A stretch of DNA of 64,000 nucleotides from Flavihumibacter fluvii (GTDB lineage: Bacteria > Bacteroidota > Bacteroidia > Chitinophagales > Chitinophagaceae): assembly GCF_018595675.2 (NCBI RefSeq), contig NZ_CP092333.1, forward strand, positions 644,001-708,000. Reading direction: 5' to 3'. Numbering within the stretch: position 1 is the stretch's first letter; each line of letters begins with the position of its first letter. Shown here piece after piece: positions 10,404 through 57,642 of this stretch. The position numbers and the translations under genes were made by a program. The notes beneath the pieces are model-generated. The model ran no database searches. It was not told the DNA's origin and worked only from the letters and a program-made list of their open reading frames with translations.

Positions 10404-10410
10404 TTCAATT

Positions 10411-21961: not shown

Positions 21962-21964
21962 ATC

Positions 21965-24778: not shown

Positions 24779-25701
24779 GCGACTATCCATTTAGCAGCGT
24801 TTGATAAGATATTCAGGACATTTTTCTCTTTGAATACAGGGAAAGTCTCGTGGCCAGGCCTGAAGTAAAATATTTTTCCTTTGCCCAGTTCCCACAACAT
24901 GCCAGAGCGGAACCATTCACCTGTCGCCCACGATTCTTCGAAAATAACCGAGTCAGGTGCAGGTACGTGAAAGGGCTCATCATACATTTCAGTCTGCGGG
25001 ATTAAGAAACTTGCCGGTAGTCCGGCCATGATAGGGTGACCCGGCTGCAACACTTTCACGGTGCTGGGTTTGCCATCATTTCGATAGGCCGGGAAACAAC
25101 AAAATGGCAGGTGTACCTGCAATTTGGTCTGGCCGTCTGGGAACTTGCGTTCAACAGTATAAGGTGTTATACGGGCATCATAGTGAGGAACGGTGAATTG
25201 TTTCGGTGGTGCAATGAAACTGATGTTTGTCGATTTCACGGGACTATCCTTCAGGACATTCAACCGGGTAATCTCATTCATTGCCTGTACGAAGGGCGTA
25301 GACCAATGTGCGGAATGGAGTGCAATAAATGCCAGGGTGCCAGCTTTAATCCTTTCGACAATGTTTTTACCTTTCTCCGGACTTATTTCATCCTGCCGCA
25401 CATGCCCCCACCAAATCAGCAGGTCGGTTTGGTCGAGTGTGCTGTCTGGAATGCCCTGATCAGCGTCATCCAATCCAACGGATGCTACTGAAAATTCCGG
25501 ATTGGCCTTCAATTGGTCAGCAATGTAATTCCCTAAAAAATTATCGTAGGCTTCTTTTTGCTCATCACTCCGTTCATCCCATACCAGGATGCGGATCTTT
25601 TTTTTCACTTCAAGCAGCGGGATAACTGAACCAGGCAGAATGATACCTGAAAATGCTGTTAAAGAAGTGTTCTTCAAGAATTGCCGTCTGTTGTGATACA
25701 T
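24775..25701 (-). CDS. ThuA family protein with Tat-like signal (first in operon)
   Basis: A 308-residue protein. The N-terminus 'NRRQFLKNTSL' followed by a hydrophobic stretch is a Tat-type signal, so it probably folds in the cytoplasm and is exported. The ThuA fold is shown by 'IRILVWDERSDEQKEAYDNF', 'TDLLIWWGHVRQDEI', 'GTLAFIALHSAHWSTPF' and 'GHPIMAGLP', then 'GKIFYFRPGHETFPVF'. The His-Ser pair in 'ALHSAHW' is typical of ThuA proper and differs from the second ThuA in this operon. The gene leads the operon. The 200-base gap up to 25902 must hold divergent promoters for this operon and the symporter. Confidence 0.9.
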   Translation of the reverse strand: MYHNRRQFLKNTSLTAFSGIILPGSVIPLLEVKKKIRILVWDERSDEQKEAYDNFLGNYIADQLKANPEFSVASVGLDDADQGIPDSTLDQTDLLIWWGHVRQDEISPEKGKNIVERIKAGTLAFIALHSAHWSTPFVQAMNEITRLNVLKDSPVKSTNISFIAPPKQFTVPHYDARITPYTVERKFPDGQTKLQVHLPFCCFPAYRNDGKPSTVKVLQPGHPIMAGLPASFLIPQTEMYDEPFHVPAPDSVIFEESWATGEWFRSGMLWELGKGKIFYFRPGHETFPVFKEKNVLNILSNAAKWIVA

Positions 25702-41343: not shown

Positions 41344-42672
41344 ATGCGTAAGATTTTTTTTGCTTTGCTGGCGTTTTTCCAGGTGGCGTCTGCCAGTGCG
41401 CAGCACTATACTCCTTCGGCTGCGAACATCTCCGCCCGCACCCAGTTCCAGGACAATAAGTATGGGATGTTCATTCATTGGGGACTATCGAGTATGCTTG
41501 CCGACGGTGAATGGGTGATGAATAACCGGAACATCCGGGTTGAAGATTATAAACGCTTATTACATGCATTTAACCCGGCGGACTTTGATGCAGCACAATG
41601 GGTGTCCACTGCAAAAAAAGCGGGCATGAAATACATTGTATTTATTACCCGGCACCATGATGGTTTTTCCAATTGGGATACTAAATATTCCGACTGGAAG
41701 ATTACCAATACGCCTTATGGTAAAGACGTGTTGCGGCAGTTGGCGGATGAATGTAAAAAACAGGGCATGAAACTGGGCCTTTATTATTCTACGCTCGACT
41801 GGTCGCGGGATGATTATCCGTATGAAACAGGGCGGACTGGACAGAAAGCAGGGCGCTCGAAGAAAAGTGATTATTCATCCTACCTGCAGTTCATGAAAAA
41901 CCAGTTGACCGAATTGCTCACCAATTATGGTGAAGTGATGTCTATCTGGTTTGATGGACATTGGGATCAGACCAATCCAGAAGGCCATGCCAACAGGGAT
42001 TCGCGGATTGATTGGAAGTACGAAGAAATCTATGGACTGATCCATCAATTGCAACCGCAATGTATGATTGGTAACAACCACCACCTTTCACCTATCAATG
42101 GCGAGGATTTCCAAATGTTTGAAAGGGACCTTCCGGGAGAGAATAAATCGGGGCTCAGTTTCCAGAAAGCTTCTGCCCAGGTGCCGCTGGAAACCTGTGA
42201 AACCATAAATGGCGCCTGGGGTTATAATATTACCGACAGGAATTTCAAAACTGTTGAACAGATCATCCACTTGCTGGTGGGTGCAGCCGGCAGGAATGCC
42301 AACCTCTTGTTGAACGTTGGACCAATGCCAACCGGGCTGATCCAGCCAGAATTTGTGGATTCTTTGGGAGCAGCCGGCAAATGGATACAAGCACATGGCG
42401 AAAGTATATATGGTACACGCGGCGGACCATTGGTACCGCAGACCTGGGGTGTAACAACAAAAAAGGATAAACGCATTTTTATCCATTTCTTTAAGCCACC
42501 AACCGGAAATATGGTTTTCATGCCAGGCTTCACTGAAAAAATGCTTTCCGCCAGATTATTTGGTTCAGGCAAGACAGTGAAGTTCACCCAAATGAAAGAG
42601 GGGCTTTTAGTGAATGTGAACGATGTTGAAATAACAGGACCAGATACGATTGTTGAATTAACCATAAAATAG
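41344..42672 (+). CDS. GH29 alpha-L-fucosidase, secreted
   Basis: A 442-residue enzyme with a signal peptide ending 'ASASAQ' (~20). The GH29 barrel is complete: 'KYGMFIHWGLSS' (His45), 'YIVFITRHHDGFSNWDTK' (His104/105), 'GLYYSTLDW' and 'VMSIWFDGHWDQ' with the nucleophile Asp204, then 'NLLLNVGPMPTG'. GH29 retains configuration and releases alpha-L-fucose from glycans in the periplasm or outside. A short C-terminal beta domain follows. It starts the + strand group with the GMC, Gfo/Idh/MocA and AraC genes (9, 9 and 17 bases apart), so fucose or a fucosylated sugar may be the substrate of the oxidation that follows. Confidence 0.95.
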   Translation: MRKIFFALLAFFQVASASAQHYTPSAANISARTQFQDNKYGMFIHWGLSSMLADGEWVMNNRNIRVEDYKRLLHAFNPADFDAAQWVSTAKKAGMKYIVFITRHHDGFSNWDTKYSDWKITNTPYGKDVLRQLADECKKQGMKLGLYYSTLDWSRDDYPYETGRTGQKAGRSKKSDYSSYLQFMKNQLTELLTNYGEVMSIWFDGHWDQTNPEGHANRDSRIDWKYEEIYGLIHQLQPQCMIGNNHHLSPINGEDFQMFERDLPGENKSGLSFQKASAQVPLETCETINGAWGYNITDRNFKTVEQIIHLLVGAAGRNANLLLNVGPMPTGLIQPEFVDSLGAAGKWIQAHGESIYGTRGGPLVPQTWGVTTKKDKRIFIHFFKPPTGNMVFMPGFTEKMLSARLFGSGKTVKFTQMKEGLLVNVNDVEITGPDTIVELTIK

Positions 42673-42680
42673 AAATCTTC

Positions 42681-44369
42681 ATGCCAACCATCTATGATGC
42701 CATTGTGATCGGGTCCGGAATCAGTGGGGGCTGGGCCGCCAAGGAACTTTGTGAGAAGGGGTTAAAAACACTCTTGCTGGAAAGAGGAAAGCAGGTGGAA
42801 CATCTTAAAGATTATCCCACAGCCACCCAACATCCCTGGGAATTCCCCCGCAGGGGCAGGCTTCCACTGGAAACACTTCAGGAAAATCCAATTGTAGCAC
42901 GTTGTTATGCATTCAATGATACCAGCGACCATTTTTTTGTAAAGGATAAAGAGCACCCATATATACAGGAGAAACCTTATGATTGGATCCGCGGCTACCA
43001 GGTTGGTGGAAAATCATTGCTCTGGGCCCGTGCAACACAACGCTGGAGCAAATATGATTTTGAAGGTCCGGCCCGGGATGGATTTGCTGTGGACTGGCCA
43101 ATCAGGTATGAAGACATTGCACCCTGGTATAGCCATGTGGAATTATTTGCAGGGATCAGTGGCAATAAAGACGGGTTGGATACTTTGCCCGATAGTGAAT
43201 TCCTGCCTGCCTGGGAAATGAATATCGTTGAGAAGGACATGCAGAAAAAAATCATGGCACGCTTCAAGGACCGTCACGTTGTACAAGGCCGATGTGCACA
43301 TCTTACGGAGCCTAAGGAAATCCATTTGCAACAGGGCCGGGGTAAATGCCAGGCCCGGAGTATGTGTGAACGGGGTTGTCCATTTGGGGGATATTTCAGT
43401 TCTAATTCTTCTACCATTCCCTGGGCCGCAAAAACCGGCAACCTCACCCTGCGTCCCGATTCTGTCGTGCATTCCATCATCTATGATGATAAAAAAGGGA
43501 AGGCAAGTGGTGTCAGGGTAGTAGATGCACATACCAAAGAAATGACAGAATATTTTGCAAAAGTCATTTTTGTAAACGCCGCTACCTTAAATACAAACTT
43601 GATTTTACTGAATTCGACCTCTTCCCGTTTCCCAAATGGTTTGGGCAATGACAATGACTTGCTGGGAAAATATATTGCTTTCCATAACTACCGGGGAACC
43701 CTGAACGCAACTATGGATGGATATGAAAATGATTATTATTTTGGCCGGCGGCCAACTGCGCCAATGATGCCTAACTTCAGGAATGTTCACAAACAGGAAA
43801 TGGATTTTTTAAGGGGCTATATGACTTTTTATTCTGCCGGAAGGGCGGGCTGGGGGCATGATGTACCTGGCGAATCGATTGGTGCTGCTTTTAAGGAAGG
43901 TACCGCTGAAGCCGGACCATGGGGCGTTTTCATGATGATGCAGGGTGAAACGATCCCTAAGGTCACTAACCAGGTGAGCCTGGACAAAAACCAGAAAGAC
44001 CAGTGGGGAATTCCCTTGTTATCAGTTCGGGTAGACTATGATGATAATGATGAAAAAATATTAAAGGATTTCCTGGCACAGGGTGCTGAAATGCTGGATG
44101 CGGCAGGCTGTAAGAATATCAGGTCGAATGACAGCAAGCAGGCCCCCGGGCTAGATATCCACGAAATGGGCGGCGTGCGGATGGGTAAGGATCCCAAAAC
44201 ATCTTTGCTGAATAAGTGGAACCAGTTACACCAATGTGAAAATGTATTTGTTACCGATGGGGCCTGCATGGTGTCTACCAGTACACAAAATCCATCCCTT
44301 ACATTTATGGCGATCACTGCACGTGCGGCCAATCATGCCATTGAAGAATTAAAAAAAAGAAACCTCTAA
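42681..44369 (+). CDS. GMC oxidoreductase, FAD-dependent sugar dehydrogenase-like
   Basis: A 562-residue flavoprotein with the N-terminal FAD-binding fold 'AIVIGSGISGGWAAKEL' (GxGxxG at residues 11-16) and, late, 'DIHEMGGVRMG' (catalytic His) and 'TSTQNPSLTFMAITARAANHA' read as 'TSTQNPSLTFMAITARA' (Asn/Pro of the GMC active site). A Cys-rich stretch 'GKCQARSMCERGCPFGG' resembles the FAD subunits of gluconate-2-/glucoside-3-dehydrogenases, which pass electrons to cytochromes. There is no signal peptide. Oxidation of a sugar hydroxyl (for example to a 3-keto-sugar) is inference from the family and from the adjacent Gfo/Idh/MocA gene. Confidence 0.9.
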   Translation: MPTIYDAIVIGSGISGGWAAKELCEKGLKTLLLERGKQVEHLKDYPTATQHPWEFPRRGRLPLETLQENPIVARCYAFNDTSDHFFVKDKEHPYIQEKPYDWIRGYQVGGKSLLWARATQRWSKYDFEGPARDGFAVDWPIRYEDIAPWYSHVELFAGISGNKDGLDTLPDSEFLPAWEMNIVEKDMQKKIMARFKDRHVVQGRCAHLTEPKEIHLQQGRGKCQARSMCERGCPFGGYFSSNSSTIPWAAKTGNLTLRPDSVVHSIIYDDKKGKASGVRVVDAHTKEMTEYFAKVIFVNAATLNTNLILLNSTSSRFPNGLGNDNDLLGKYIAFHNYRGTLNATMDGYENDYYFGRRPTAPMMPNFRNVHKQEMDFLRGYMTFYSAGRAGWGHDVPGESIGAAFKEGTAEAGPWGVFMMMQGETIPKVTNQVSLDKNQKDQWGIPLLSVRVDYDDNDEKILKDFLAQGAEMLDAAGCKNIRSNDSKQAPGLDIHEMGGVRMGKDPKTSLLNKWNQLHQCENVFVTDGACMVSTSTQNPSLTFMAITARAANHAIEELKKRNL

Positions 44370-44378
44370 TTTGAACAC

Positions 44379-45449
44379 ATGAAAAATATCAGGGTTTTAG
44401 TAGTTGGTTGCGGAAATATGGGTGCATCCCATGCGCAAGCCTACCATCAATTGGAAGGATTTACAATTTGCGGCATTGTTTCCAGGGGAAACAGTAAAGT
44501 GTTGTTGAATGATTTGCTGGGTGGCGGGTTTGCTTTATTCGATCAATATGAAGAAGCATTGGCAAAAACGAACCCGGATGCGGTATGCATTTCAACTTAT
44601 CCGGAAACACATGAAGATTATGCCATTCAGGCACTGGAGAAAGGTTGCCATGTTTTCATTGAAAAGCCTTTGGCAGATACCGTGGCCGGAGCAGAAAGGG
44701 TAGTAGCTGCTGCAAGGAAGGCTGGCAAAAAATTGGTCACCGGTTATATTTTAAGGCATCACCCTTCCTGGCAATATTTTATCCAGGTGGCACACGGACT
44801 GGGCAAACCCCTGGTGATGCGCATGAACCTCAACCAGCAATCACATGGCCGCATGTGGACGGTACACCGTAACCTCATGCAAAGCCTGAGTCCGATCGTG
44901 GATTGCGGTGTACATTATATTGATGTGATGTGCCAGATGACACGTTCAAAACCGGTACAGGTCAGTGCCATTGGTGCAAGGCTTACTGAAGATATCCCGG
45001 CTGGCAACTATAACTATGGACAATTGCAGATCCGTTTTGAAGATGGTTCTGTAGGTTGGTATGAAGCCGGATGGGGACCGATGATCAGCGAAACGGCATT
45101 TTTTGTGAAAGACGTGATAGGACCTAAAGGTGCGGTTTCCATTGTGGCAAAATCAGCCAGTGCGGCAGGCCATTCTGATGATATAGGATCACATACCAAA
45201 ACAGAGTCTATCAGGATCCATCATGCCGATATTGACGCACAGGACGAGTTCATCAAAAAAGATGAATGGGTTGACCTGGATGATGAACCCGACCACCAGG
45301 AACTTTGTAACCGTGAGCAATTATATTTCCTGAATGCAATACACCATGACCTGGATCTAACTGATCATATGGAAGATGCTGTCAATAGCCTGCGGATCGC
45401 TTTTGCCTGTGATGAATCGGTTAGGACAGGACAGGTGGTATTACTGTAA
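44379..45449 (+). CDS. Gfo/Idh/MocA-family oxidoreductase (cytoplasmic)
   Basis: A 356-residue NAD(P)-dependent enzyme with an N-terminal Rossmann fold ('VLVVGCGNMGASHAQAYHQL', seen as 'GCGNMGASHA', residues 10-19) and the family's 'GCHVFIEKPLADTVAGA' motif (catalytic Lys of EKP). The C-terminal alpha/beta domain has 'VDCGVHYIDVMCQM', in which the His is often catalytic. Such enzymes oxidise or reduce sugars, inositols or keto-sugars; ThuB of the keto-trehalose pathway belongs here. It sits 9 bases after the GMC gene, in one operon with the fucosidase and the AraC gene. The substrate is unknown. Confidence 0.92.
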   Translation: MKNIRVLVVGCGNMGASHAQAYHQLEGFTICGIVSRGNSKVLLNDLLGGGFALFDQYEEALAKTNPDAVCISTYPETHEDYAIQALEKGCHVFIEKPLADTVAGAERVVAAARKAGKKLVTGYILRHHPSWQYFIQVAHGLGKPLVMRMNLNQQSHGRMWTVHRNLMQSLSPIVDCGVHYIDVMCQMTRSKPVQVSAIGARLTEDIPAGNYNYGQLQIRFEDGSVGWYEAGWGPMISETAFFVKDVIGPKGAVSIVAKSASAAGHSDDIGSHTKTESIRIHHADIDAQDEFIKKDEWVDLDDEPDHQELCNREQLYFLNAIHHDLDLTDHMEDAVNSLRIAFACDESVRTGQVVLL

Positions 45450-45466
45450 ATGATCCAGTTGCGGAA

Positions 45467-46336
45467 ATGAAAGCAGCAGTACATAAGTCAACCATTCCTG
45501 CATCCCAGTTATTTGTAATTAAGGAATTGCGGGAAAAACATTTTGACCCCACCTGGCATGCGCATTCTGAGTTCCAGTTATTTGTTGTGCTGGAAGGTAC
45601 CGGAACTCGTTTTATCGGTGATAATATCAAAACCTTCAAACCGGGTGAATTAATATTAACCGGACCAAACCTGCCCCATCTATGGCGCAGCGATGAAATA
45701 TATTTTTCAAAAAAAAGTGAGTTACTGACCCATGGCATTGTTATTTACCTGAATGAACATTTTTTAGGGGAAAAAAGCCTCGATAAGGAAGAGATGATCG
45801 GTGTGAAAAAAATGTTTTCAAAATCTATGCGGGGATTGGAGTTTTATGGTGAAAGAAAAGAACGGGCAATTGTTTTAATGAAGGAGATCACTGCGTTAAA
45901 TGGGTTGGAGCGGGTGATCGGTCTGCTGCAAATTTTGCACCTGCTGGCTGCGACTAAAGAATACCATTTTATTTCCCGGTCATCCTATCCAGATCCATTT
46001 AAGCAGGTTGAGACCGCACGGGCTAATATCGTTTATGAGTACGTGATCAGGAACTTCAGGAAAAAAATCAACCTCGAAGAAGTGGCTTGCCTGGTGCATA
46101 TGACGCCAACATCTTTCAGCCGGTATTTTACACGGAATAGCAATAAGACCTTTTCAGCTTTTGTGGGTGAGGTAAGGATCAGGCAAGCGTGTAAACTGTT
46201 GGTAGAAACCGAACAGTCCATTGAAGAAATCTGCTATGAATGCGGCTTTAATACCCTTTCAAATTTCAACAGGCAGTTTAAGGAGTTAATGAATGATAAT
46301 CCATCTTCCTACAGGAAAAGGTTCATGGCCTTATGA
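45467..46336 (+). CDS. AraC-family transcriptional regulator, cupin sensor domain
   Basis: A 289-residue regulator: an N-terminal cupin-like sensor (~15-100, 'HAHSEFQLFVVLEGTGTRF', 'GELILTGPNLPHLW') and a C-terminal double helix-turn-helix (~190-288; 'INLEEVACLVHMTPTSFSRYF', seen as 'LEEVACLVHMTPTSFSRYF', and 'SIEEICYECGFNTLSNFNRQFK', seen as 'IEEICYECGFNTLSNFNRQF'). It probably senses a sugar and controls the operon it ends, and perhaps the facing minus-strand operon. The last 6 bases overlap, tail to tail, the stop of the second Gfo/Idh/MocA gene. Confidence 0.93.
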   Translation: MKAAVHKSTIPASQLFVIKELREKHFDPTWHAHSEFQLFVVLEGTGTRFIGDNIKTFKPGELILTGPNLPHLWRSDEIYFSKKSELLTHGIVIYLNEHFLGEKSLDKEEMIGVKKMFSKSMRGLEFYGERKERAIVLMKEITALNGLERVIGLLQILHLLAATKEYHFISRSSYPDPFKQVETARANIVYEYVIRNFRKKINLEEVACLVHMTPTSFSRYFTRNSNKTFSAFVGEVRIRQACKLLVETEQSIEEICYECGFNTLSNFNRQFKELMNDNPSSYRKRFMAL

Positions 46337-47449
46337 TAATGTAAATTCCGGTAAGTGAATAATTTTTCCACCATTCATGGCAGATTCATGGGCCAGGATT
46401 CCGACGCAGGTAATATTAGCCGATTGCCGGGCATCTGGATAGGCTGGTCTTTTTTCCACCAAAGCACTGATGAATTCATGTACCAGGTGGGGATGGGAAC
46501 CGCCATGCCCGGCACCTTGTATAAATGACAGGTGCTGGTTGTCCTTCGCATCGTAAACTCCACCGGTAGTAAATGACTGAATAGCTTCCGGAAGCAGGTG
46601 GGCAAAATCTGGAATACTTACTTTTTCGGGTATTTCTCCAGTATGCAGGACGGAAGGTTCATGTTCGATTAAGGTCCATTCAAAACTTTTTTTAGAACCA
46701 TATACATCAAAGCTTTCGCGGTATTGCCGGGCTGTGTTGAATAGGGAACGGGTTACTTCGGCAGCGAGGTCTGAATCGCGGAATTTAATATGGCAGGTTT
46801 CAATGGCAAATGGTGATCCATACTTGCTCACAAGGTTTTCATCAATGCGGCCTGATCCCATGCAGGATATATATTCTGCGTCTTTTTTGGCCAATGCCAC
46901 TACAGGTGCCACACAGTGCGTGGCATAAAACATGGGTGGCAAACCTTCCCAATAACCAGGCCATCCAGCCATTTCCTGCTGGTGCGAAGCCCGCAGGAAT
47001 TGTAGCTTACCCAGTTCGCCGGATTCTGAAAGGCTTTTGATATACAAAAATTCCCTGCTGTACACTACTGTTTCCATCATCATATAAGTGAGGCCGGTAG
47101 CTTCTGTCAGGTCAACTATCTGTCGGCATTCTTCCACCGTTGTTGCCATAGGGACGGTACAGGCCACATGCTTGCCGGCTTTCAGTGCCTGGATGGACTG
47201 TGCTGCGTGGTTCTGAATGGGGGTGTTGATATGCACGGCATCAATTGCCGGATCCGATAATAGTTCCTCGTAACTGGCATATCGTTTTTCAATGCCAAAA
47301 GCTTCGCCGATCTGGTTCAGTTTTTTAGTATCCCGCTGGCAAATCGCATACATATTTGCATCAGGGTGGCGCTGGTAAATCGGTATAAATTCTGCTCCAA
47401 ATCCTAGTCCGATAATCGCTACATTAATGGGTTTTTTGTGCATATACAA
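46331..47449 (-). CDS. Gfo/Idh/MocA-family oxidoreductase (second, cytoplasmic)
   Basis: A 372-residue enzyme (start at MYMHKKP; ATG 47443 in frame, 6 bases in, is equally possible). Rossmann motif 'NVAIIGLGFGAEFIPIYQRH', seen as 'IIGLGFGAEF', then 'YASYEELLSDPAIDAVHINTP' and 'GKHVACTVPMATTVEECRQI', in which the usual E-K-P is replaced by T-V-P. The loss of the consensus Lys is notable and suggests a different catalytic mode. It is the last gene of an operon with a sugar isomerase/epimerase-like gene (34-base gap) and the ThuA-azurin fusion, on the strand opposite the AraC gene. Confidence 0.9.
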   Translation of the reverse strand: MYMHKKPINVAIIGLGFGAEFIPIYQRHPDANMYAICQRDTKKLNQIGEAFGIEKRYASYEELLSDPAIDAVHINTPIQNHAAQSIQALKAGKHVACTVPMATTVEECRQIVDLTEATGLTYMMMETVVYSREFLYIKSLSESGELGKLQFLRASHQQEMAGWPGYWEGLPPMFYATHCVAPVVALAKKDAEYISCMGSGRIDENLVSKYGSPFAIETCHIKFRDSDLAAEVTRSLFNTARQYRESFDVYGSKKSFEWTLIEHEPSVLHTGEIPEKVSIPDFAHLLPEAIQSFTTGGVYDAKDNQHLSFIQGAGHGGSHPHLVHEFISALVEKRPAYPDARQSANITCVGILAHESAMNGGKIIHLPEFTLS

Positions 47450-47483
47450 GTTTTTTAGTCATTGGTTTTGGTAAGGAAGGGCG

Positions 47484-48344
47484 TCATCCAGCCCATTGTT
47501 GCAGAAACGCAAGGCCAGCTCTGGCAAATGTATCCTGGCTCTCTGCAAACGGGCGCCAGATGCAAACCGCACCAGCCAGTTCCTGGTTTTTAGGCGTAAA
47601 GCTTTCTATCGATACCACACCTGAATAGCCGATCGTTTCCAATCCATTTCTTATCGCTTTCCAGTTGGTTTGGCCGGTTCCAGGTATACCCCGGTAATTT
47701 TCTGAAATCTGGAAATGAACCAGGTGTTTTCCTGCGGTAATGATAGCGCTCTCCATATCGGGTTCTTCAATATTCATATGGAACCCATCCAGCATAATTT
47801 TGGCTGCCGGATGATTGATATCGTTGACGAGTTGTACGACATCTGCCGCGGTATTCACAAGGTCTGACTCAAACCTGTTTAAAGGCTCCAGGGCTATCTG
47901 TAAATTTTTGGAAGCCGCCATTCCGCAAACTGTCCGCAGGTTTTTTACAGCGAGTTGCCATTCCTGCTTTCGCTGCTCAGGTGGCACCATCCTGGCTTTT
48001 CCAACTGCAGAATACATCGGCCCGGCGAGGAATCCAGCGTTCCAGGCCAAACAAAAATCAAAGCAGTTTTCTATGTATCTGAAACAATTATCATGGACGG
48101 CTGTGTCTTCATTGGTCAGGTCACGGGATGGACCAAATGCACCACACGTGATCACCTGCAGGTTGAATTCCTGCATGGCAGATTGTACGGCAATAGGGTC
48201 AATTAATGCAGGGTCTTCAATGGCAATTTCAATAGCTTCGAATCCCATGGCTGCTGTTTTTTCGAATAACGCCCTGATGTCAGCGGTCTGAAAAGGGGAG
48301 GTCCATATCCAGGTGCTGATGCCAAATTTTACCGGTATTGCCAT
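47484..48344 (-). CDS. sugar phosphate isomerase/epimerase-like TIM barrel
   Basis: A 286-residue xylose-isomerase-like TIM barrel (AP-endonuclease-2 superfamily). Motifs: 'FGISTWIWTSPF', 'MGFEAIEIAIED', 'IALEPLNRFESDLVNTAADV' and 'AKIMLDGFHMNIEEPD', 'LVHFQISENYRGIPGTG' and 'YSGVVSIESFTP'. Glu, Asp, His and Glu at these strand ends form the usual divalent-metal site. These enzymes epimerise or isomerise keto-sugars (as in tagatose-3-epimerase-like proteins) and are often encoded beside Gfo/Idh/MocA enzymes in keto-sugar pathways. It lies 17 bases downstream of the fusion gene and 34 bases before the oxidoreductase. Confidence 0.92.
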   Translation of the reverse strand: MAIPVKFGISTWIWTSPFQTADIRALFEKTAAMGFEAIEIAIEDPALIDPIAVQSAMQEFNLQVITCGAFGPSRDLTNEDTAVHDNCFRYIENCFDFCLAWNAGFLAGPMYSAVGKARMVPPEQRKQEWQLAVKNLRTVCGMAASKNLQIALEPLNRFESDLVNTAADVVQLVNDINHPAAKIMLDGFHMNIEEPDMESAIITAGKHLVHFQISENYRGIPGTGQTNWKAIRNGLETIGYSGVVSIESFTPKNQELAGAVCIWRPFAESQDTFARAGLAFLQQWAG

Positions 48345-48361
48345 ATAGAAAAATTGGTGGG

Positions 48362-51277
48362 TTATTTAATCACTTGCATTATTCCCTTCATGATACGCCA
48401 ATGGCCGGGGAAGGAACAGATATACGGATAATCACCCGGTGTACCGGGGACTTTCAGTATGAATGCGTAAGTGCCGCCTGGATTAATCAATGGCGTACTG
48501 GCCAGTACTTCCGGCATTTTCGGCACATATTGTTGGGTAATGCCAGCTGGAGATTTTGCGAGTTCATCAGCTGCAGCACCTACCTTATCAATGGTGCCTG
48601 GTTGCAATACGAGCAGGTTGTGTTGCATGAAATCAGGATTCTGCAATTCAATTTTTATGGTGCTTCCTGCTTTTACAGAGAATTTTTGTTGATCATATTT
48701 CATGGCCTCTTTGACTACTTTCAGCCGGATGAGCTGATCAAATTTTGCATTCGGTTCTGCTGCTGCAGTAATGGCTGGTTCCACAATTGTAGTTGGGGAT
48801 AGAATTTCTAACGCTTCTTTGATCCAGCGATCATTGATATTGTCCGGTTGCCTGGCCATGTCGGCAATGATGTCCGTTTTTTCAACTGATTCGGGGAAGC
48901 CGGATAAAGCCAATAGTGCAGCCAATCTAACCCGCAAATCTTTGTCTTTGAAAACACCGGCTGTTTTTAGCTGGCCGGTTAATGCTGCATTTCCTGGTAG
49001 CACCTGGATGGCTGCTTTTCGCACGCCTGCAGCTGGATGTTGCAGCGCTTTCAAGGCAACATCAAGCGCTTGCTGGTTATCGCCGTTCATTGCATGCAGG
49101 CCATGCATAGTCCATAATGCATGAATGGCTGGTGCATTGATCCCTGCTTCATCGAGACTTTCATCCTTTACTATTTTATACAGGGCAGGCAGCACAGTTG
49201 TATTGCCAGCCTCCACCAGTAGTCTTTGTGCATGCATTCGCCAAAACATGTTGTCATCAGACAATGCTTTGACCAAAGCCTTTGAATCTTTTTTATCCAG
49301 GGATGTCAGGTTGGAAGGCTTTGCGTTTTTATAAACAATCCTGTAGATCCTTCCACGGTCATGGTCCCGTAAAGGGTTGATATGTGCATTGCCCTTTCCG
49401 TTTCCAAAACCCGGGGGCGTTGGATTGTGCTGGATGATAAAATTATACCAGTCCGCCACCCATAAAGCGCCATCCGGGCCAACTTCAGCCTGGATGGGTC
49501 CCATCCATTCATCTGCACTGGCTAGTATATTCCAGCCGTCGCCTTTCTCTTTAAATCCGGCACCGTTTTTTTCAAGGACGTGTTGGTGGATGAGTCTTCC
49601 GGTCGGTTCACAGACAAATGCGACCCGGTTCCAGTATTCCCTGGGAAAATTCCTGGCGGTATATAAGTTGTGGCCCGCTGCAGCAGTGAATCCACCGAAA
49701 ACATCCACCTGCCGCAGGTTTTTGGTAACCACGTGCATGGCATAATGGTTGTCGATTTTATCTATGCCGGTTTTTTTATCCAACGCAAGATCCAGGACCT
49801 TTTTAGGCAGTCCATAAAAACCGCTATGGGTATTATTGGCCGTTGAAATAAATACATCAAATTCTTCTGAAAACCCCAATCCCCAGGTATTGTTGCTGGT
49901 GGTCGACAGAAATTCCAGTTGCTGCCCGTCTTGTTGAAAATGATACAGGCCCATGGAAAATTCCATTGAATCATTACCTACTTTTCCTTTGAAACCAGAA
50001 TAACCTACAGTCCCCCAAATGGTGTTATCAAATCCATACCGCAAATTAGACGGACCAGCATGTGTATCAAAAACGCCCCAACCGGTCATGATGGTATCTC
50101 GTTGATCTGCTTTATCATCTCCATTCAAATCCTGTAAAGAAATGAAATAAGGTGCCTGCGAAACAATGATGCCATTTTTATGAAAAGTAAAGCTTGTCGG
50201 AATATTCAGTTTGTCTGCGAATAAGGTGATCTTATCTGCTTTACCATCACCATCGGTATCTTCAAGTATTTTGATACGGTCATCTCCCTTTTGTTTGTCT
50301 TCCAAAACTGTATTCGGGTAGTCGACAGTTTCAATGACCCATAGGCGTCCCTTTTCATCCCAGTTCATGTAAATTGGGTTAATGATATCGGGTTCAGCGG
50401 CAAATAGTTTCAATTCAAAATCTACCGGCACCTGCGTTAATAACATTGATTCAGCAGGCGATAAGGCAGCTTGCAGCTGCGGCGGGGGATTTCGCTGTTC
50501 ATAATTTGGGATAACAGCATCTGTGTAAACAGGCGTGGGCATTTTCAGGGCCGTGAGCCGGTTGCGGGCTTTGTCTCCCACTGCCCAAAGGATACCGTTT
50601 TTGATGAGTTGCTGAACGCCCGGGTTATTGAAACTTGCTTCATCGTGGCCATAGGCTGTATAAAATACGCGGCCGTCACCATACTCCCGCACCCAGGTAT
50701 AAGGTTCATGGTGTGTACCTTCCACTCTTTCAGTGAGTACTTTAATGGATTTGCTGAGTTGATGGTGCACATAGGTTTCGTCTGTGGTTTTAAATACCGG
50801 AACATTTTTCATCACCGGATGCGAAGTGTCAGTGACCACAGCATAAAAGGAATCTACCTTGTGTGACAGGAACTGGCCGCCGATGAGTTCTATTACTTCA
50901 GGTGAATTCCTGAAGCAATACGATGCGCAATGCAAAGGGATAAAGCCTTTCCCTGATGTAACGAAATTCAGCAGAGCTTTTTCCTGTGCGGGTTGTATGG
51001 AATCATAGTTGGCATAAAGGATGAGTCCGTCGTACTTACTTAGATTTTCTGTGTTCAGGTCATCGGGCGTTGTGCTATAGGTAATGTTGATGCCCTCCTT
51101 AAAATATTCCCTGGCCAGTATCGATGCAAATACACCTGAATTGTGGTGTTCACTGTTATGTCCCAGGAACAGGATTTCTATTCGCCTGGGACGATCATCC
51201 ACGGCATGTTTACATCCAGGCACTAACAGTTGCAGGAGAACAAAAACCAGGAAGACCCAGCTGTATTTTTTATGCAT
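48362..51277 (-). CDS. ThuA / PVC-type beta-propeller / HEAT / azurin fusion, lipoprotein
   Basis: A 971-residue lipoprotein (signal 'LLVPGCKH'). Order: ThuA domain ~33-235 ('IEILFLGHNSEHHNSG', 'GKGFIPLHCASYCFRNSPEV'); PVC-type sugar-dehydrogenase-like propeller ~280-680 ('MNWDEKGRLWVIETVDYPN', 'DTDGDGKADKITLFAD'); HEAT-like helices ~690-850; and an azurin-type cupredoxin ~860-971 with copper ligands H886, C954, H959 and M963 in 'CSFPGHWRIMKG'. All domains would be periplasmic or surface-exposed. The propeller plus copper domain suggests oxidation of a sugar or keto-sugar with electrons passed to copper; there is no heme motif. Confidence 0.92.
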   Translation of the reverse strand: MHKKYSWVFLVFVLLQLLVPGCKHAVDDRPRRIEILFLGHNSEHHNSGVFASILAREYFKEGINITYSTTPDDLNTENLSKYDGLILYANYDSIQPAQEKALLNFVTSGKGFIPLHCASYCFRNSPEVIELIGGQFLSHKVDSFYAVVTDTSHPVMKNVPVFKTTDETYVHHQLSKSIKVLTERVEGTHHEPYTWVREYGDGRVFYTAYGHDEASFNNPGVQQLIKNGILWAVGDKARNRLTALKMPTPVYTDAVIPNYEQRNPPPQLQAALSPAESMLLTQVPVDFELKLFAAEPDIINPIYMNWDEKGRLWVIETVDYPNTVLEDKQKGDDRIKILEDTDGDGKADKITLFADKLNIPTSFTFHKNGIIVSQAPYFISLQDLNGDDKADQRDTIMTGWGVFDTHAGPSNLRYGFDNTIWGTVGYSGFKGKVGNDSMEFSMGLYHFQQDGQQLEFLSTTSNNTWGLGFSEEFDVFISTANNTHSGFYGLPKKVLDLALDKKTGIDKIDNHYAMHVVTKNLRQVDVFGGFTAAAGHNLYTARNFPREYWNRVAFVCEPTGRLIHQHVLEKNGAGFKEKGDGWNILASADEWMGPIQAEVGPDGALWVADWYNFIIQHNPTPPGFGNGKGNAHINPLRDHDRGRIYRIVYKNAKPSNLTSLDKKDSKALVKALSDDNMFWRMHAQRLLVEAGNTTVLPALYKIVKDESLDEAGINAPAIHALWTMHGLHAMNGDNQQALDVALKALQHPAAGVRKAAIQVLPGNAALTGQLKTAGVFKDKDLRVRLAALLALSGFPESVEKTDIIADMARQPDNINDRWIKEALEILSPTTIVEPAITAAAEPNAKFDQLIRLKVVKEAMKYDQQKFSVKAGSTIKIELQNPDFMQHNLLVLQPGTIDKVGAAADELAKSPAGITQQYVPKMPEVLASTPLINPGGTYAFILKVPGTPGDYPYICSFPGHWRIMKGIMQVIK

Positions 51278-51501
51278 GGCAAAAGATATTTTTAGATCGG
51301 GATCGTGAGGTACTAAATATCTCTATATAAATTGAAAAGTCATTTCCATTTCTTATCCAATAATGACTGTATTATGCCTTAATTTTTAGAGAAAAGTAAA
51401 AAGTAGGTTATTTTAAAGGGTGTGTTGCTGGTAATGACCTTTTTATGACAAGGTTAACATACAAAAAGTAAAGCAAACATTACATATTGGAAATCAAACT
51501 T

Positions 51502-51509
51502 TACCTTTG
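51502..51509 (+). promoter_or_regulatory. Bacteroidota-type -7 promoter element
   Basis: TACCTTTG matches the Bacteroidota -7 consensus TAnnTTTG and lies 22 bases before the start of the membrane-protein gene. No clear TTTG -33 box is found at the normal distance. Confidence 0.5.
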
Positions 51510-51531
51510 TGTTCAATATAAATCTCTTTTT

Positions 51532-52008
51532 ATGTATGTAAAATTCCTTTTCCCCAACCGGTTTAAAATGCTGGGCTGGATCATGGCGATCCCTGCATTT
51601 GTATTGATGTTATTTGTACTGCACAATGATTTTTCATTTGCCTTTCTGGACTACACCGCAAAAGGGAGCGATAGGCTGGCGCTGGATAATGGCTTTATTT
51701 ACAATGTGCAGTCGAACAACTTTACCGACGAGATCGGAAGTTTGTTGCTGATATCCGGCCTTTTATTCATTGCCTTTTCAAAAGAAAAAGATGAAGATGA
51801 GATGATTTCAAAATTACGGCTGGAATCCTTGTTATGGGCGGTATTTATTAACTCAATATTCGTAATGCTGGCCATCATTTTCATTTACAATTTGCTTTTC
51901 CTGAACGTTATGGCCTATAATATTTGTACAACTTTGATCCTTTTTATAGCAAGGTTCAACCTCGTGCTGCAATCTGAAAGAAAAAAATTAAACCAGGAGG
52001 CTTTATGA
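51532..52008 (+). CDS. small membrane protein paired with an HTH regulator
   Basis: A 158-residue protein with four likely transmembrane helices ('MLGWIMAIPAFVLMLFVL', 'IGSLLLISGLLFIAFS', 'ALLWAVFINSIFVMLAIIFIY'-like and 'VMAYNICTTLILFIARF'). ATG 51532 is preferred to an in-frame TTG 45 bases upstream, because a -7 promoter element lies between them. The stop overlaps the following Xre-type HTH start (ATGA). Membrane protein plus small HTH pairs of this kind are common, and the membrane protein may modulate the regulator. I do not recognise a named family. Confidence 0.85.
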   Translation: MYVKFLFPNRFKMLGWIMAIPAFVLMLFVLHNDFSFAFLDYTAKGSDRLALDNGFIYNVQSNNFTDEIGSLLLISGLLFIAFSKEKDEDEMISKLRLESLLWAVFINSIFVMLAIIFIYNLLFLNVMAYNICTTLILFIARFNLVLQSERKKLNQEAL

Positions 52009-52205
52009 AAAATACCCTCCGTATTGAACGGGCTATCCTGAATATTACCCAGGCAGACCTGGCAGAACAGGTGCAGGTCTCAAGGCAAACGATCAACGCT
52101 ATTGAGAGCAATAAGTACGTGCCTTCCACTGTGCTGGCGCTAAAGATCGCCCGCTATTTCCAAAAAAGGCTGGAAGATATTTTTATATTGGAAGATACTG
52201 ATTAG
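52005..52205 (+). CDS. small Xre-family HTH transcriptional regulator
   Basis: A 66-residue Cro/CI-type helix-turn-helix protein: 'ERAILNITQADLAEQVQVSRQT' (seen as 'NITQADLAEQVQVSRQT') with recognition helix 'SRQTINAIESNKYVPS', then 'ALKIARYFQKRLEDIFI'. This is the short YozG-like type whose genes often follow a small integral membrane protein. The start overlaps the upstream stop by 4 bases. An AGGAGG sequence at 51995-52000 sits 4 bases before the ATG, a strong Shine-Dalgarno-like site rare in Bacteroidota, though part of the upstream reading frame. Confidence 0.9.
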   Translation: MKNTLRIERAILNITQADLAEQVQVSRQTINAIESNKYVPSTVLALKIARYFQKRLEDIFILEDTD

Positions 52206-52209
52206 GGTA

Positions 52210-53337
52210 TCACTTGTTTAAAGTAACGGTCTTCCCGGTTTGGGCTGAGATCTTTGCTGCCTCCAGGATACGTGCAACAATCATATTTGTTTCCAGTGAA
52301 TACAATCCATAATGCGGGACACTGATCTTTTTGCGGATCACATCAGCGAAATACAAAAATGGATCTGTATAGGTGTTGGTTTCTTCGGGTTTCAGCACCA
52401 ATACCTGTTCGGGTGAGTTCCTGCCTTTGATGCGCAAGTCTTTATTGGTAGATGAAATGGCGTACCCTGCTTCTCCATATACTTCCATATCCTTTCGGTG
52501 GTAAGGCCAGCTCCAGGAAGCCTGTATGATGCATTGTGCGGTCGGGTAGGTCAGGATAATGGTGGCTTCATCATCTACTTTCGGGTATATGGCTGGTTTC
52601 AGTTGCTGGGTGACGCAGGTGACGGAAGTCGGCACCTGGCCCTTCATAAGGTAGGTCATGAGGTTGGCACCATAACATCCAAAATCCATCAATGCACCAC
52701 CACCCCCATTTTTCACTGGGTCGGTTAGCCATTCAAAAAACCAGGGCTGAACGCCTATCTCCTTCGGACCCATATGTCCATCGTGTACCACCACTTTCCT
52801 TATAATGCCCATAAATGAAGTGTCTGTTGCCAACTGGTAGGCTTTGTCGGTGACCGGGTACCAGGAGGTTTCAAAATTGGTCAATACCTGGGTATTATAT
52901 TTTTTTGATAGTGCCAGCATTTTATTCGCTTCAGCAGCTGTGGTGGCCAGGGGCTTTTCCACCATTACCGGGATTCCCCGGGGAGCACAGGCTTCCACAA
53001 CACTTAGGTGTGAATTAGTGGGACCGAATCCCAGTACGCCATCAGGTTTTATTTTATCGAGCATGTTGCCGAGGTCCGAATAAAACAGGGATTTGTCGAG
53101 TTTGTATTGGGCCGCCATGGCATCGGCCAGTTCTTTACTGGGCTCGTAGATGCCCGCCAGTTGGATGATCGCATCATCCTTGCGGTTCAACAGCCAGGAA
53201 TTATGTCCATGCGCTATACCTGCTACTGCAAGGCGAACCGGTCCGCTTTGCTGTGCACCGGCAGTAGGATTAAATCCCGGAAGGATCAGCGCCAGCAAGG
53301 CAAATGCCAAATAAAATTGTTTGATTTGTATACGCAT
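52210..53337 (-). CDS. exported Gfo/Idh/MocA-family oxidoreductase
   Basis: I chose ATG 53337 (MRIQIKQFYLAFALLALILP), which gives a typical Sec signal peptide ending 'TAGAQQ'; an ATG 36 bases upstream is in frame. The 375-residue product has 'VRLAVAGIAHGHNSWLL', in which the normal GxGxxG is altered to 'GIAHGH', then 'VMVEKPLATTAAEANKM' with the EKP lysine, and 'GGGALMDFGCYGANLMTYLM' in the C-terminal domain. A secreted Gfo/Idh/MocA enzyme would need tightly bound NAD(P), as known for glucose-fructose oxidoreductase-like and some periplasmic homologues. Its stop is 4 bases from that of the facing HTH gene. Confidence 0.92.
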   Translation of the reverse strand: MRIQIKQFYLAFALLALILPGFNPTAGAQQSGPVRLAVAGIAHGHNSWLLNRKDDAIIQLAGIYEPSKELADAMAAQYKLDKSLFYSDLGNMLDKIKPDGVLGFGPTNSHLSVVEACAPRGIPVMVEKPLATTAAEANKMLALSKKYNTQVLTNFETSWYPVTDKAYQLATDTSFMGIIRKVVVHDGHMGPKEIGVQPWFFEWLTDPVKNGGGGALMDFGCYGANLMTYLMKGQVPTSVTCVTQQLKPAIYPKVDDEATIILTYPTAQCIIQASWSWPYHRKDMEVYGEAGYAISSTNKDLRIKGRNSPEQVLVLKPEETNTYTDPFLYFADVIRKKISVPHYGLYSLETNMIVARILEAAKISAQTGKTVTLNK

Positions 53338-53579
53338 GCAATCTGTTTTGCATGAATTTAATGAAAATTCCATATGCTACAATTAGCTGTTCTGATTGAT
53401 GGTAACATCATTGCGGGTAATTGTGTTCTCCAAAAAAATTGCGCAATGTCTATTTTATCCAAAGGATGTACTGCCCCAATCGCAAAACCGGAAGAAGTGA
53501 AGCCGGGGAAATTGGATCATCACTAGTCTTATTTTTTGGATATATTGCCGCATCCATTCAGTGTTAATTTTTAAGCTAC

Positions 53580-54218
53580 ATGTCGACCCCTGCTGCTGCC
53601 GATAAAGTATTCTTCCAGGACGCTAAACCTGCCGCCATACGGCTCTGGCACTGGCTGCTGGTGGTATTTTTATTTTCATCCGTCATCACTGTTTTATTTG
53701 GTTCCACCCTTTTTAAAACCAAGCCCAATGTGGCGATGGTGCTGGAACAAGTGCAGCAGGAGGGCGGTACAATTTCTGAAAAGCAGGCCTGGGTTGTGGC
53801 GCATGAATTCAGTGATAAATTGTGGATGTTACACAAGTTTATTGGGTATGGGTTATCATTGTTGTTCCTATGGCGGATCATTGCTGAAATTACCCTGTCA
53901 AAAGAGAAAAAACTGTTTGCACGTATCCGCACAGCGGTGCAATATCCCGGCAATTCGCCCGAAAACAACCATTATAAGATGGTGCAGAATACCTACCTGG
54001 TTTTTTATAGTTTGTTTTTGGTGATGGTATTAACCGGATTGATATTGGCTTATGAAGACATCAAATTTTTAAAGCCCATTCATGAACCTGCGGAAGAGAT
54101 CCATGGATTCGTGCAATATGGTTTGTATGGGTTTATCGTCTTCCATATTATTGGCGTGATCAGGGCCGACATGGGCCGGTATGGTGGAATTGTATCAAGA
54201 ATGATAAATGGAAAATAA
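53580..54218 (+). CDS. cytochrome b561-like membrane protein
   Basis: A 212-residue inner-membrane protein with four transmembrane helices. '[15 protein letters not shown]' (His24), '[18 protein letters not shown]', '[21 protein letters not shown]' (two His) supply the likely heme b ligands, as in bacterial cytochrome b561/HyaC-type proteins that carry electrons between quinones and periplasmic partners. The gene is followed by the aldo/keto reductase gene, 1 base away. It may connect the periplasmic copper/heme sugar dehydrogenases of this window to the quinone pool; that link is inference. Confidence 0.88.
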
Positions 54219-54219
54219 T

Positions 54220-55206
54220 ATGATACCGTTAGCAAAACTTGGCAGTGAAGGGCTTATTACTTCCCGGCTTGGCCTGGGTTGTATGGGCATGAGTGAATTT
54301 TATGGCCATCATGATGATGCAGAGAGCCTGCGTGTATTGGACCGGGCTGTTGATCTGGGCATTGTATTCTGGGATACGGCCGATATGTATGGGCCGTATA
54401 CCAATGAAGTGCTGGTTGGGAAGTCCCTTAAAAAGCATCGGCAAAAAATTCTGCTGGCTACGAAATTCGGATTCGTTCGTGGCGAAGATCCTGCAGCGAG
54501 GGGCATCAATGGCCGGCCCGAATATGTGATGTCTTCCTGTGAAGGCAGTTTAAAAAGACTGGAAACTGATATGATCGACCTTTATTACCTGCACCGCAAG
54601 GATCCGAATACACCGATCGAAGATACGGTTGGTGCAATGGCAAAGCTGGTCAGCCAGGGAAAGATCCGGGGCATTGGCTTAAGCGAAGTTTCAGTTGAAA
54701 CTTTGCGTAAAGCACATGCTGTGCATCCCATCACAGCCGTGCAAAGTGAATATTCTTTATGGACCCGCGATCCGGAGGAAGGTATGTTGAAGGCTTGCAA
54801 AGAATTGGGCATCGCCTTCGTCGCGTATAGTCCATTAGGACGCGGGTTTCTCACAGGACAGATCAAACGCATCGAAGATTTTGAGCCGGATGACTGGCGC
54901 AGGTTTAGTCCAAGGTTCCAGGGGGATAATTTCCGTAAGAACCTGGACCTTGTGGATCAGGTAGCTGCTATTGCTGCAGAGAAGCAATGCACACCTTCCC
55001 AGCTTGCACTGGCCTGGGTATTGGCGCAGGGCGAACATATCTTCCCGATACCCGGTACCAAACGCATCAAATACCTGGAAGAAAATGCAGCTGCGTTCAA
55101 TGTACAATTAAATCCGGATGACCTGTCGCGACTGCACGAGGTATTCAGTGCCGGAGTTGCCGGCGACCGTTATCCCGAATTGGGCATGAAATTTATCAAC
55201 GGATGA
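54220..55206 (+). CDS. aldo/keto reductase
   Basis: I chose ATG 54220 ([11 protein letters not shown]), the base after the upstream stop; ATG 54208 is in frame, overlapping by 11 bases. The protein is an NADPH-dependent AKR of the ~330-residue YajO/AKR13-like type. The catalytic tetrad is visible: Asp and Tyr in '[14 protein letters not shown]', Lys in '[11 protein letters not shown]' and His in '[10 protein letters not shown]'. '[12 protein letters not shown]' and '[11 protein letters not shown]' follow, and the NADPH-site '[14 protein letters not shown]'. It likely reduces an aldehyde or keto-sugar. The stop overlaps the start of the CBM9-like gene (ATGA). Confidence 0.93.
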
Positions 55207-56009
55207 AACAAGCACCAGATTATATCGCGCATAAAATTGAAGGAGCCATAGTCATCGATGGCGATACCACAAAAAAAGTATGGCAGCACGCTCAATGGAG
55301 TAAGCGTTTTGTAGACATGGTGACCGGCGAACCGGGTATGTATAATACCCAATCGGCCATTGTCTGGAATGATACCCATGTGTATTTTGCTTTTGAAGCA
55401 GAAGAACCATTCCTTGAGGCAAAACTGACAGCCCGCGACAGTATCATTTTTTTAGAGAACGACCTTGAGCTGCTGATCGATGGGCAGGATTGTTATTATG
55501 AATTGGAGATCAACGCTGCCAATACTCTTTACGAGGTTTTCTTTATCTGGAAAGATGCCTATACAAAGGGAAGCCGGTTTGATATTCCGGAGTTTGATGT
55601 TCACCAGCCGCAGGCGTATACATTTGGCGGTGATTATGATCGCACCGGAGCCAGTTTCTGGAAGGGAAGGCATCCCCGCGGAATCAGGTGGGCATTTACA
55701 AATTTTGATTTGCCGGGACTGGAAACTGCCGTGCAGTTGCAGGGATCGCTTAATGATCACCGTGATATCGATAAAGGCTGGACTTTGGAAATTGCCATCC
55801 CCTGGACCAGCCTTGGTTTGCTGGCCAACGGCCGGTCCATTCCGCCCCGGGAAGGTGATATATGGAATATGTTTCTCGGAAGGTTCCAGAAACTGATGGC
55901 CGGCGGACAGGAAGTGACACCACATCCGGCTATGGCAATGACTTCACATGGTGTGTATGATACACACCTGCCTGATAAGTGGAGCAAAATATTATTTAGA
56001 ACTTATTAG
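55203..56009 (+). CDS. CBM9-like carbohydrate-binding protein without signal peptide
   Basis: A 268-residue beta-sandwich protein of the CBM9-like type (DOMON-like). Motifs: '[19 protein letters not shown]', '[19 protein letters not shown]', '[21 protein letters not shown]' in parts ('[18 protein letters not shown]'), '[10 protein letters not shown]' and '[14 protein letters not shown]'. Secreted members bind xylan or reducing sugar ends; this one lacks any export signal, so a cytoplasmic or co-exported role is implied. It overlaps the aldo/keto reductase gene by 4 bases at the start. At its end it overlaps the facing MGH1-like gene by 14 bases. Confidence 0.85.
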
Positions 56010-57642
56010 TACCGGGCTTGATCTCAAATATATTTGATCCGCCACCCCAGGTAAGTTTCAGTTTCATCGGGACATTCGATTCTACCACTAAATCTGGTTT
56101 TTGCTTTATGTTATTTCTTGTTCCGCAACGGAAAGACAGTAGTCCGTCTTTTCCAATCGGGTAACGTTCGATCCCATGTTCTTCCAGCAGGCGTACATCC
56201 CAGTTAATGGTTTGATCCTGCAGGTTGGAAGTAATACCAAAAATGCTTTCAAACATCACTGAAATGGGAACAAGGCCGGTCCACCCGATAAATTCCTTGC
56301 GGGCCAGGAAACCCGGCTCAGTGCTTTCGGGCGCATAATATTCAAAGAAGGTGCCGGTATTCTTAAATACTTCCATCACCTGCTGGTGGTGTTTCCTGGC
56401 AATGTCAAAAGCGAGTTCATGAAAACCTTTGTTTTTCAATCCGGCAATGATCATGTAATTCGTCGGTGCCCAAACACCACCTTGCCAGTATCGGCCATCG
56501 GCCTGGTATTTTTCATGATCGGCAGGGATAGATGCAACAGGGTGTTTACGGGCAAATGTTTTGGTATCGCTCAGGTGCGCAACAAATCGTTTCAGTTCTT
56601 CCTGATCGAGTATATCGGTCCAAAGCGCCCAGTATGCACCAATGCTTTTCAGTGTGCCCAGGGAACCATCGGCATAACGGTCATAAAAGAACGCCGTTTT
56701 TGGATCCCAGAGTTTTTCCTTGATATATTTTTTGAGGAATTTGGTTTCCTCTTCAATGTCTTCAATTTCCTGCCAGCGTTCAGTATAGAACCCAAAATCT
56801 ACAAGGATCTTTCCGATATATAATTGTTGCAGGCAGGTATCCAGCCAGGTCATAAACCCATTCGAATAAATGGGATTGTATTGCTTCTGAACCCGGGGTT
56901 GATTATCCATGCCGGTTCCCCAGCCGCTGGACCAATAGGAACCATCCTGCCAGGTACGGTTCAGCCGCAGCCACTGGTAGTAAGCGCATAGCACCGGGAA
57001 AATTTTATGGATCCTGCCAAGGTCGCCAAACTGCTGGTAATAGGCCAGCTCACTCCAGGGGATCAGGTTAGGGCCTGTACTGGTAGGATCATAGCGGTGG
57101 AAACAATCGCCCCCCGTCTTGCCCCACATTTCACGCGAGATAAAACCATCGGGATGTTGTTTTGCATAGAAATTATTCAGAGTCTGCTGAAAAGGATAAG
57201 CGCGAGTACCATAGCGGGCGAAAAGTGTGATAAAGGTCGAGTCCCACATAAAAATATTGCCATTGTACGCCGTGTCAATGTAAGAACAGGTAAATCCCGA
57301 TTGTGGTGCCGGGTCTTTGATGTTACCAATAGCTATCTCCCAGGCACGCCAATACATGTCAATGGCCTGCTGGTTGCCTTTCCAGATAGGGGAAGGCAGG
57401 ATCTCCCGCGCCTGTTTAAATGTAGGAGCAGGCACAAGTACAGGCCTGGCTCCCCTGAATTCATTTTCGGTTACAAAAATATTTTTGATGTAAGTATTCT
57501 TGTAAGGTGAATTTTCATCACCATCAATAAAATTTTTTTCGGGTGATTTCTCACGAGCCTGCAAAGCCGAATTAGGTATGGCAGCAGAGCCGGCGATCAA
57601 GGCAGCATTACGCAAAAATTTACGGCGCGAATCCATATGCAA
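55996..57642 (-). CDS. MGH1-like glycoside hydrolase with Tat signal
   Basis: A 548-residue protein. The N-terminus 'MDSRRKFLRNAALIAGSAA' is a Tat signal; start either MHMDSRRKF at 57642 or ATG 57636. The (alpha/alpha)6 barrel of MGH1-like/GH63-like enzymes is shown by 'YWRAWEIAIGNI', 'NGNIFMWDSTFITLFARYG', 'HPDGFISREMWGKTGGDCFHRYDP' in parts ('DGFISREMWGKTGGDCFHRY'), 'YWQGGVWAPTNYMIIAGL' and 'FFEYYAPESTEPGF'. The Asp in 'MWDSTF' and Glu in 'FEYYAPE' are plausible catalytic acids. It ends the sugar-oxidation region. A relative with a lipoprotein signal is at 27699-29306. Confidence 0.88.
   Translation of the reverse strand: MHMDSRRKFLRNAALIAGSAAIPNSALQAREKSPEKNFIDGDENSPYKNTYIKNIFVTENEFRGARPVLVPAPTFKQAREILPSPIWKGNQQAIDMYWRAWEIAIGNIKDPAPQSGFTCSYIDTAYNGNIFMWDSTFITLFARYGTRAYPFQQTLNNFYAKQHPDGFISREMWGKTGGDCFHRYDPTSTGPNLIPWSELAYYQQFGDLGRIHKIFPVLCAYYQWLRLNRTWQDGSYWSSGWGTGMDNQPRVQKQYNPIYSNGFMTWLDTCLQQLYIGKILVDFGFYTERWQEIEDIEEETKFLKKYIKEKLWDPKTAFFYDRYADGSLGTLKSIGAYWALWTDILDQEELKRFVAHLSDTKTFARKHPVASIPADHEKYQADGRYWQGGVWAPTNYMIIAGLKNKGFHELAFDIARKHHQQVMEVFKNTGTFFEYYAPESTEPGFLARKEFIGWTGLVPISVMFESIFGITSNLQDQTINWDVRLLEEHGIERYPIGKDGLLSFRCGTRNNIKQKPDLVVESNVPMKLKLTWGGGSNIFEIKPGTNKF

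Follow-up and report, generated by a model that had tools for sequence, protein, structure and literature searches.

Carbohydrate biology has only recently come to include glycan breakdown by oxidation and elimination; operons for the oxidation-elimination-hydration-reduction of glycosides include DgpABC and BT2157-2160 of B. theta. To our knowledge, little is established about how electrons are handed off from the external oxidation steps of such breakdown. Here we describe a small gene cassette in a 64-kb window of the complete 5.0-Mb genome of Flavihumibacter fluvii, a soil-type member of the Bacteroidota (all positions are window coordinates; domain calls are from Pfam scans, and signal peptides and N-terminal leaders were judged by eye). 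It encodes a ThuA-propeller-azurin fusion (ThuAz), an epimerase-like TIM barrel (APe), a Gfo/Idh/MocA protein (Gfo2) and an AraC-type regulator. The cassette resembles the operon for OGE in A. tumefaciens (PMC10628242), which combines oxidoreductases, including a Gfo-type one, with two sugar-phosphate-isomerase-like TIM barrels; it differs in that its presumed oxidative partner is a copper protein that is exported. Listings of open-licence PMC papers gave no description of ThuA with azurin or of this cassette.

An earlier note on this DNA had proposed that keto-sugar enzymes over 16 kb form one route, with sugars freed by glycosidases being oxidised and electrons leaving through azurin or a b561-like protein. 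Pfam scans find all the gene families it named, at the positions it gave; its observation is confirmed, and its interpretation partly supported. These families are common across the genome, which has 7 ThuA hits, 6 GMC hits (E ≤ 1e-30) and 16 hits to a Gfo2 profile (E ≤ 1e-10), so the mixture alone is weak evidence and conservation of the neighbourhood is the real test. The named-relative set held the closest 80 of 567, 61 of them with 3.5 kb or more of sequence flanking ThuAz on each side, and a neighbour was scored when a homolog lay within 5 kb of ThuAz (blastp E ≤ 1e-15, coverage >0.6). A Gfo2 homolog is found near ThuAz at 51 of these 61 loci, APe at 47, both at 46 and AraC at 36; one or both partners are missing from 15, 7 of them in Dyadobacter. 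Among the 80 named loci, 34 have the AraC gene next to ThuAz and divergent from it; the set is complete at 31 of these and partial at 3. Gene order varies among the 71 loci that hold all three genes (ThuAz-APe-Gfo2 at 59, APe-Gfo2-ThuAz at 10, Gfo2-APe-ThuAz and Gfo2-ThuAz-APe at one each); the linkage has therefore outlasted rearrangement. These comparisons establish the conserved unit as three structural genes, ThuAz, APe and Gfo2, plus the AraC regulator. The GMC oxidoreductase, two further Gfo/Idh/MocA proteins (Gfo1 and Gfo3), cytochrome b561 and MGH1b each lie near ThuAz at a single locus of the 61, always that of Flavihumibacter profundi, while the aldo/keto reductase (AKR) does so at two and GH29 at three, with 22-35% identity. 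For GMC, Gfo1, Gfo3, b561, AKR and GH29 this is the lack of co-occurrence in relatives that the earlier note itself named as refuting its proposal. We thus reject one conserved 16-kb pathway; of the proposed link between keto-sugar enzymes and electron carriers, the tie of APe and Gfo2 to an exported copper carrier stands and that to b561 does not.

ThuAz (48362-51277, minus strand) has a lipoprotein-like N-terminus followed by ThuA, a DUF7133 propeller, HEAT and Copper-bind domains (134.1, 397.6, 33.6 and 39.1 bits). The propeller exceeds the cut-offs of PF23500 (27 bits) and, as curated, TIGR02604 (245.1 vs 122.2 bits), the 'PVC-type heme-binding CxxCH' proteins. With one of these, Lac161_ORF7 (PMC5342196), ThuAz has propeller, HEAT and a C-terminal electron carrier in common; it differs in having azurin in place of cytochrome c, plus the N-terminal ThuA domain. 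No CxxCH haem motif is found in ThuAz, and one is present in each of the other 5 over-cut-off DUF7133 proteins of the genome. The azurin/auracyanin-like blue-copper domain (residues 852-969; 48371-48724, minus strand) lies above the PF00127 cut-off of 21.2 bits, matches the blue-copper chains 6kol, 1ov8 and 2aan by phmmer, and carries the H-C-H-M copper ligands H886, C954, H959 and M963, invariant in 43/43; it falls short of the equivalog cut-off for azurin sensu stricto (TIGR02695, 38 vs 105.1 bits). At three loci (L086, L087 and L089) azurin is a separate gene beside the propeller gene, which further bears out the azurin link. Haem-c propeller relatives occur in the F. fluvii genome and, at one locus, inside the ThuA-fused family.

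Structural comparison shows that the ThuAz propeller model has the fold of the PQQ sugar dehydrogenases, which are its best matches (VIA ranks 1-15). Identity to these enzymes (sGDH, ASD and AA12 pyranose dehydrogenase) is 11-15%, with no sequence-level hit: a profile search up to E 1 gave 21 matches, chiefly to WD40 and teneurin repeats and none to a PQQ enzyme. By a mapping by eye from the sGDH residues, H406 is kept and the PQQ arginines appear to be replaced by N462 and G593. A TIGR02111 (PqqC) profile was silent in all 39 genomes, F. fluvii included, as was its control. The apparent loss of the arginines would suit a different account, in which ThuAz is a hydrolase or lyase and the azurin or haem domain senses, regulates or aids transient internal redox, with no net respiratory electron flow; the haem-type propeller-HEAT-cytochrome c relative Lac161_ORF7 is reported to hydrolyse lactose (PMC5342196). 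We regard a hydrolase or lyase as doubtful, in that the invariant type-1 copper ligands, the exchange of haem for copper at the same place and the separate azurin genes fit electron transfer instead.

APe (47484-48344, minus strand; AP_endonuc_2, 124.8 bits), which has no signal peptide by eye, gives a near full-length match to D-psicose/D-tagatose 3-epimerases (7x7w, 7cj4 and others). It shares three of the four metal ligands of the ketose 3-epimerases, its pattern being E153, D186, Q212 and E247; the histidine of their E/D/H/E site is thus Gln in APe, as it is in 57/57 rows with letters, and the NF051856 cut-off for D-psicose 3-epimerase is not reached (176.8 vs 300 bits). From its sequence, APe could be an epimerase or a lyase/dehydratase, both being possible.

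Gfo2 (46331-47449, minus strand), likewise without a signal peptide by eye, looks GH109-like rather than like a generic dehydrogenase. CTVPMAT stands in place of EKP, so that the usual catalytic lysine is gone, and the protein has YATH and a GAGHGG loop, motif columns that are conserved across 63 rows. Alignment with five GH109-type proteins, those of 12 fetched loci (L203-L214) with a plus-strand open reading frame of at least 380 aa, finds the GHGG loop in 4/5, and YxTH and no EKP lysine in 5/5; with the Gfo2 model, two GH109 structures ranked first, one ordinary dehydrogenase being tied. Gfo2 shares full-length alignment and the YPTH-type motif with the GH109 NAD+-dependent N-acetylgalactosaminidases, a group we take together with GH188 sulfoquinovosidases (PMC10755693); it differs from GH109 in having neither the insert found in all five compared proteins nor the N-terminal leader. 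An EKP paralog outscores each single GH109 protein by hhalign, and we abandoned the claim that the likeness is unique by that score and kept the motif argument; PF21252, the GH109 C-terminal domain, was not reported for Gfo2 at genome positions 690334-691443 (E ≤ 0.01) or in the window scan. The profiles of the BT2158/BT2159 glycoside/disaccharide 3-dehydrogenases (NF058561/NF058563, cut-offs 750/650 bits) score 48.2/47.5 bits with Gfo2 and 25.4/31.9 with Gfo1, and Gfo3 is not among the matches listed. Of the three Gfo/Idh/MocA proteins, Gfo2 belongs to the conserved trio and looks GH109-like; Gfo1 and Gfo3 fall outside the trio. The family scans place Gfo2 only in the general Gfo/Idh/MocA group, and the cassette predicts a cytosolic GH109-like glycosidase.

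Taken as a whole, the cassette is best explained, at about even odds on sequence and model evidence, as a copper-wired oxidative saccharide pathway. Beyond the inner membrane, exported ThuAz would act oxidatively on a glycoside and deliver the electrons to the copper domain it carries; this domain, in place of the cytochrome c of its relatives, would hand them to the respiratory chain. The oxidised or shortened product would be imported, Gfo2 might then cut the glycosidic bond in the cytosol with bound NAD+ by oxidation, elimination, hydration and reduction, and APe would isomerise or dehydrate the freed keto-sugar there. GMC-Gfo1 and GH29 would be local neighbours that may share AraC in this lineage, with b561, AKR and Gfo3 outside the pathway. 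With a propeller of sugar-dehydrogenase type and a copper carrier physically joined in a conserved cassette, electron hand-off could be tested with one purified protein.

The strongest candidate for a wider link is the regulator itself. GH29 (41344-42672; α-L-fucosidase-like, 326.5 bits, signal-peptide-like N-terminus), GMC (42681-44369), the canonical EKP protein Gfo1 (44379-45449) and AraC (45467-46336) lie on the plus strand with gaps of 8, 9 and 17 bp, the last 6 bp of AraC overlapping the end of Gfo2. This AraC falls inside the clade of trio regulators (47 rows vs 7 paralogs, SH-aLRT 99), whereas the closest paralog in the genome shares 41% identity with it. Local co-regulation is possible, therefore, as the trio's AraC starts 17 bp after Gfo1 and closes the GH29-GMC-Gfo1 run; we infer that the GMC-Gfo1 pair was brought into one gene run with the regulator in this lineage, and the placement is the best support for the broader link of the earlier note. 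F. profundi, the closest named relative found (L136, ThuAz 83% identical), retains the whole block except GH29. These features speak for one 16-kb oxidative pathway in this lineage, in which GH29 frees fucose, GMC and Gfo proteins oxidise sugars, and azurin or b561 takes the electrons. We nevertheless consider that arrangement quite unlikely, given the single-locus co-occurrence of GMC, Gfo1, Gfo3 and b561 with ThuAz and the behaviour of GMC-Gfo1 as a separate pair, whose genes adjoin each other at 7 of the 8 loci examined within the genus and which occurs in six further same-genus genomes with no ThuAz match. GH29 is not conserved with the cassette and is absent from this place even in F. profundi.

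The GMC protein is fructose-dehydrogenase large-subunit-like (71.5/43.1 bits), with a full-length match to 8k6k_A (E 3.4e-35) in which DIHEMGG and TQNPSLT align and 3/4 Cys of a C-rich stretch are kept; we take these motifs to hold the catalytic His/Asn and the cysteines to be those of an Fe-S site. It has no signal peptide by eye. Glucoside 3-dehydrogenase combines GMC, Gluconate_2-dh3 and a carrier, whereas no small-subunit gene adjoins the window GMC; the genome holds three such genes (PF13618, one confirmed by Pfam), all beside other GMCs. On these grounds we reject GMC as the feeder of azurin. In two same-family genomes (L026 and L027), GMC genes stand in tandem, three in one and five in the other.

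A second partner set emerges beyond the named relatives. An even phylum sample gave 33 positive genomes of 395 (E ≤ 1e-100) and 35 loci, some genomes having two: Gfo2 is present at 18, a PF09370 'PEP hydrolase-like' protein instead at 14 (L085, L091, L093-L102, L104 and L105; four proteins identified by Pfam, the remainder by similarity) and neither at 3. UPF0261 lies within 5 kb at 9 of the 14; PF09370 and UPF0261 correspond to the halves of the plant protein Tm-1. In a FastTree phylogeny of 116 propellers, the partner label (A or B) needs at least 4 changes. We tentatively suggest, while leaning against it, a class of exported, copper-wired enzymes that oxidise saccharides in Bacteroidota, with ThuAz as its founding member. 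In this class azurin would have taken the place of cytochrome c on a propeller of quinoprotein type, and the enzymes would feed either of two interchangeable cytosolic sets: in set A, an NAD+ glycosidase of GH109-like type plus an epimerase-like lyase; in set B, a PF09370 TIM barrel, alone or accompanied by UPF0261. Possible roles would follow for DUF7133, a family whose function Pfam lists as unknown, and for ThuA, whose name reflects trehalose utilisation alone; if true, both families would gain a function.

The linkage might also be real and serve something other than catabolism, such as cell-envelope glycan remodelling or copper handling. SusC-like genes lie near only 12 of the 61 loci, and ThuAz is patchy, occurring in 3 of 15 same-genus genomes, F. 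fluvii included. A ThuAz search (E ≤ 1e-60) matched 3 of 59 genomes, those of F. fluvii, F. profundi (G013) and a same-genus genome (G006) with AraC (60% identity) in the usual divergent place beside ThuAz, its contig being too short to judge the rest of the block. Such a non-catabolic role seems very unlikely to us, as the companions come from sugar-enzyme families and two of the scanned long ThuAz forms have a weak, sub-cut-off match to lectin-like Laminin_G_3 (24.4 and 21.7 bits; cut-off 27.6).

The window holds a second ThuA and electron-carrier set at 20942-25701 (minus strand), ThuA-[cytochrome c-DUF6797-propeller-like]-ThuA, its genes overlapping or nearly so, which is matched in 7 of 198 phylum genomes, F. 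fluvii included (E ≤ 1e-60). No homology between ThuAz and its cytochrome c protein (21965-24790) was detected by BLASTP or hhalign. Elsewhere in the genome, a haem-type cousin locus (L233:677-13251, C1:1584676-1597250) encodes GDSL-DUF7133-HEAT-cytochrome c together with three AP_endonuc_2 proteins, an MFS protein, a Gfo protein and a PF06439 3-keto-disaccharide hydrolase; PF06439 matched none of the region proteins scanned by Pfam.

The other genes of the region are bystanders by neighbourhood. Gfo3 (52210-53373, minus strand) has a signal-peptide-like N-terminus and keeps EKP, its dinucleotide motif being, by eye, GIAHGH and not GxGxxG. Cytochrome b561 (53580-54218; 76.3 bits), AKR (54208-55206; 280 bits) and a weak CBM9-like gene (55203-56009; 17.7 bits, below the 23.4 cut-off) form one overlapping run on the plus strand (53580-56009), and b561 is rejected as an electron sink, nothing beyond adjacency pointing to it. 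An MGH1-like glycosidase (55996-57642, minus strand; 110.7 bits) has a Tat-like N-terminus, RRKFLRN.

No RNA families or tRNAs were found in the window at the thresholds used. Contractile-injection-system-type genes (13-14521, plus strand; CIS tube, weak, Phage_base_V, GPW_gp25 and DUF6519) precede the glycan genes, which begin with a polysaccharide-utilisation-type block (15798-40680) of sigma-70/ECF, FecR, SusC, SusD, ASPIC/FG-GAP, GH130/GH32-like, MGH1-like, GH97 and GH92 genes, all on the minus strand except an MFS gene on the plus strand. An MGH1-like glycosidase and a SusD lie near each of two ASPIC/UnbV FG-GAP proteins, which are 1122 aa (30264-33632, minus strand) and 1167 aa (57821-61324, plus strand) long.

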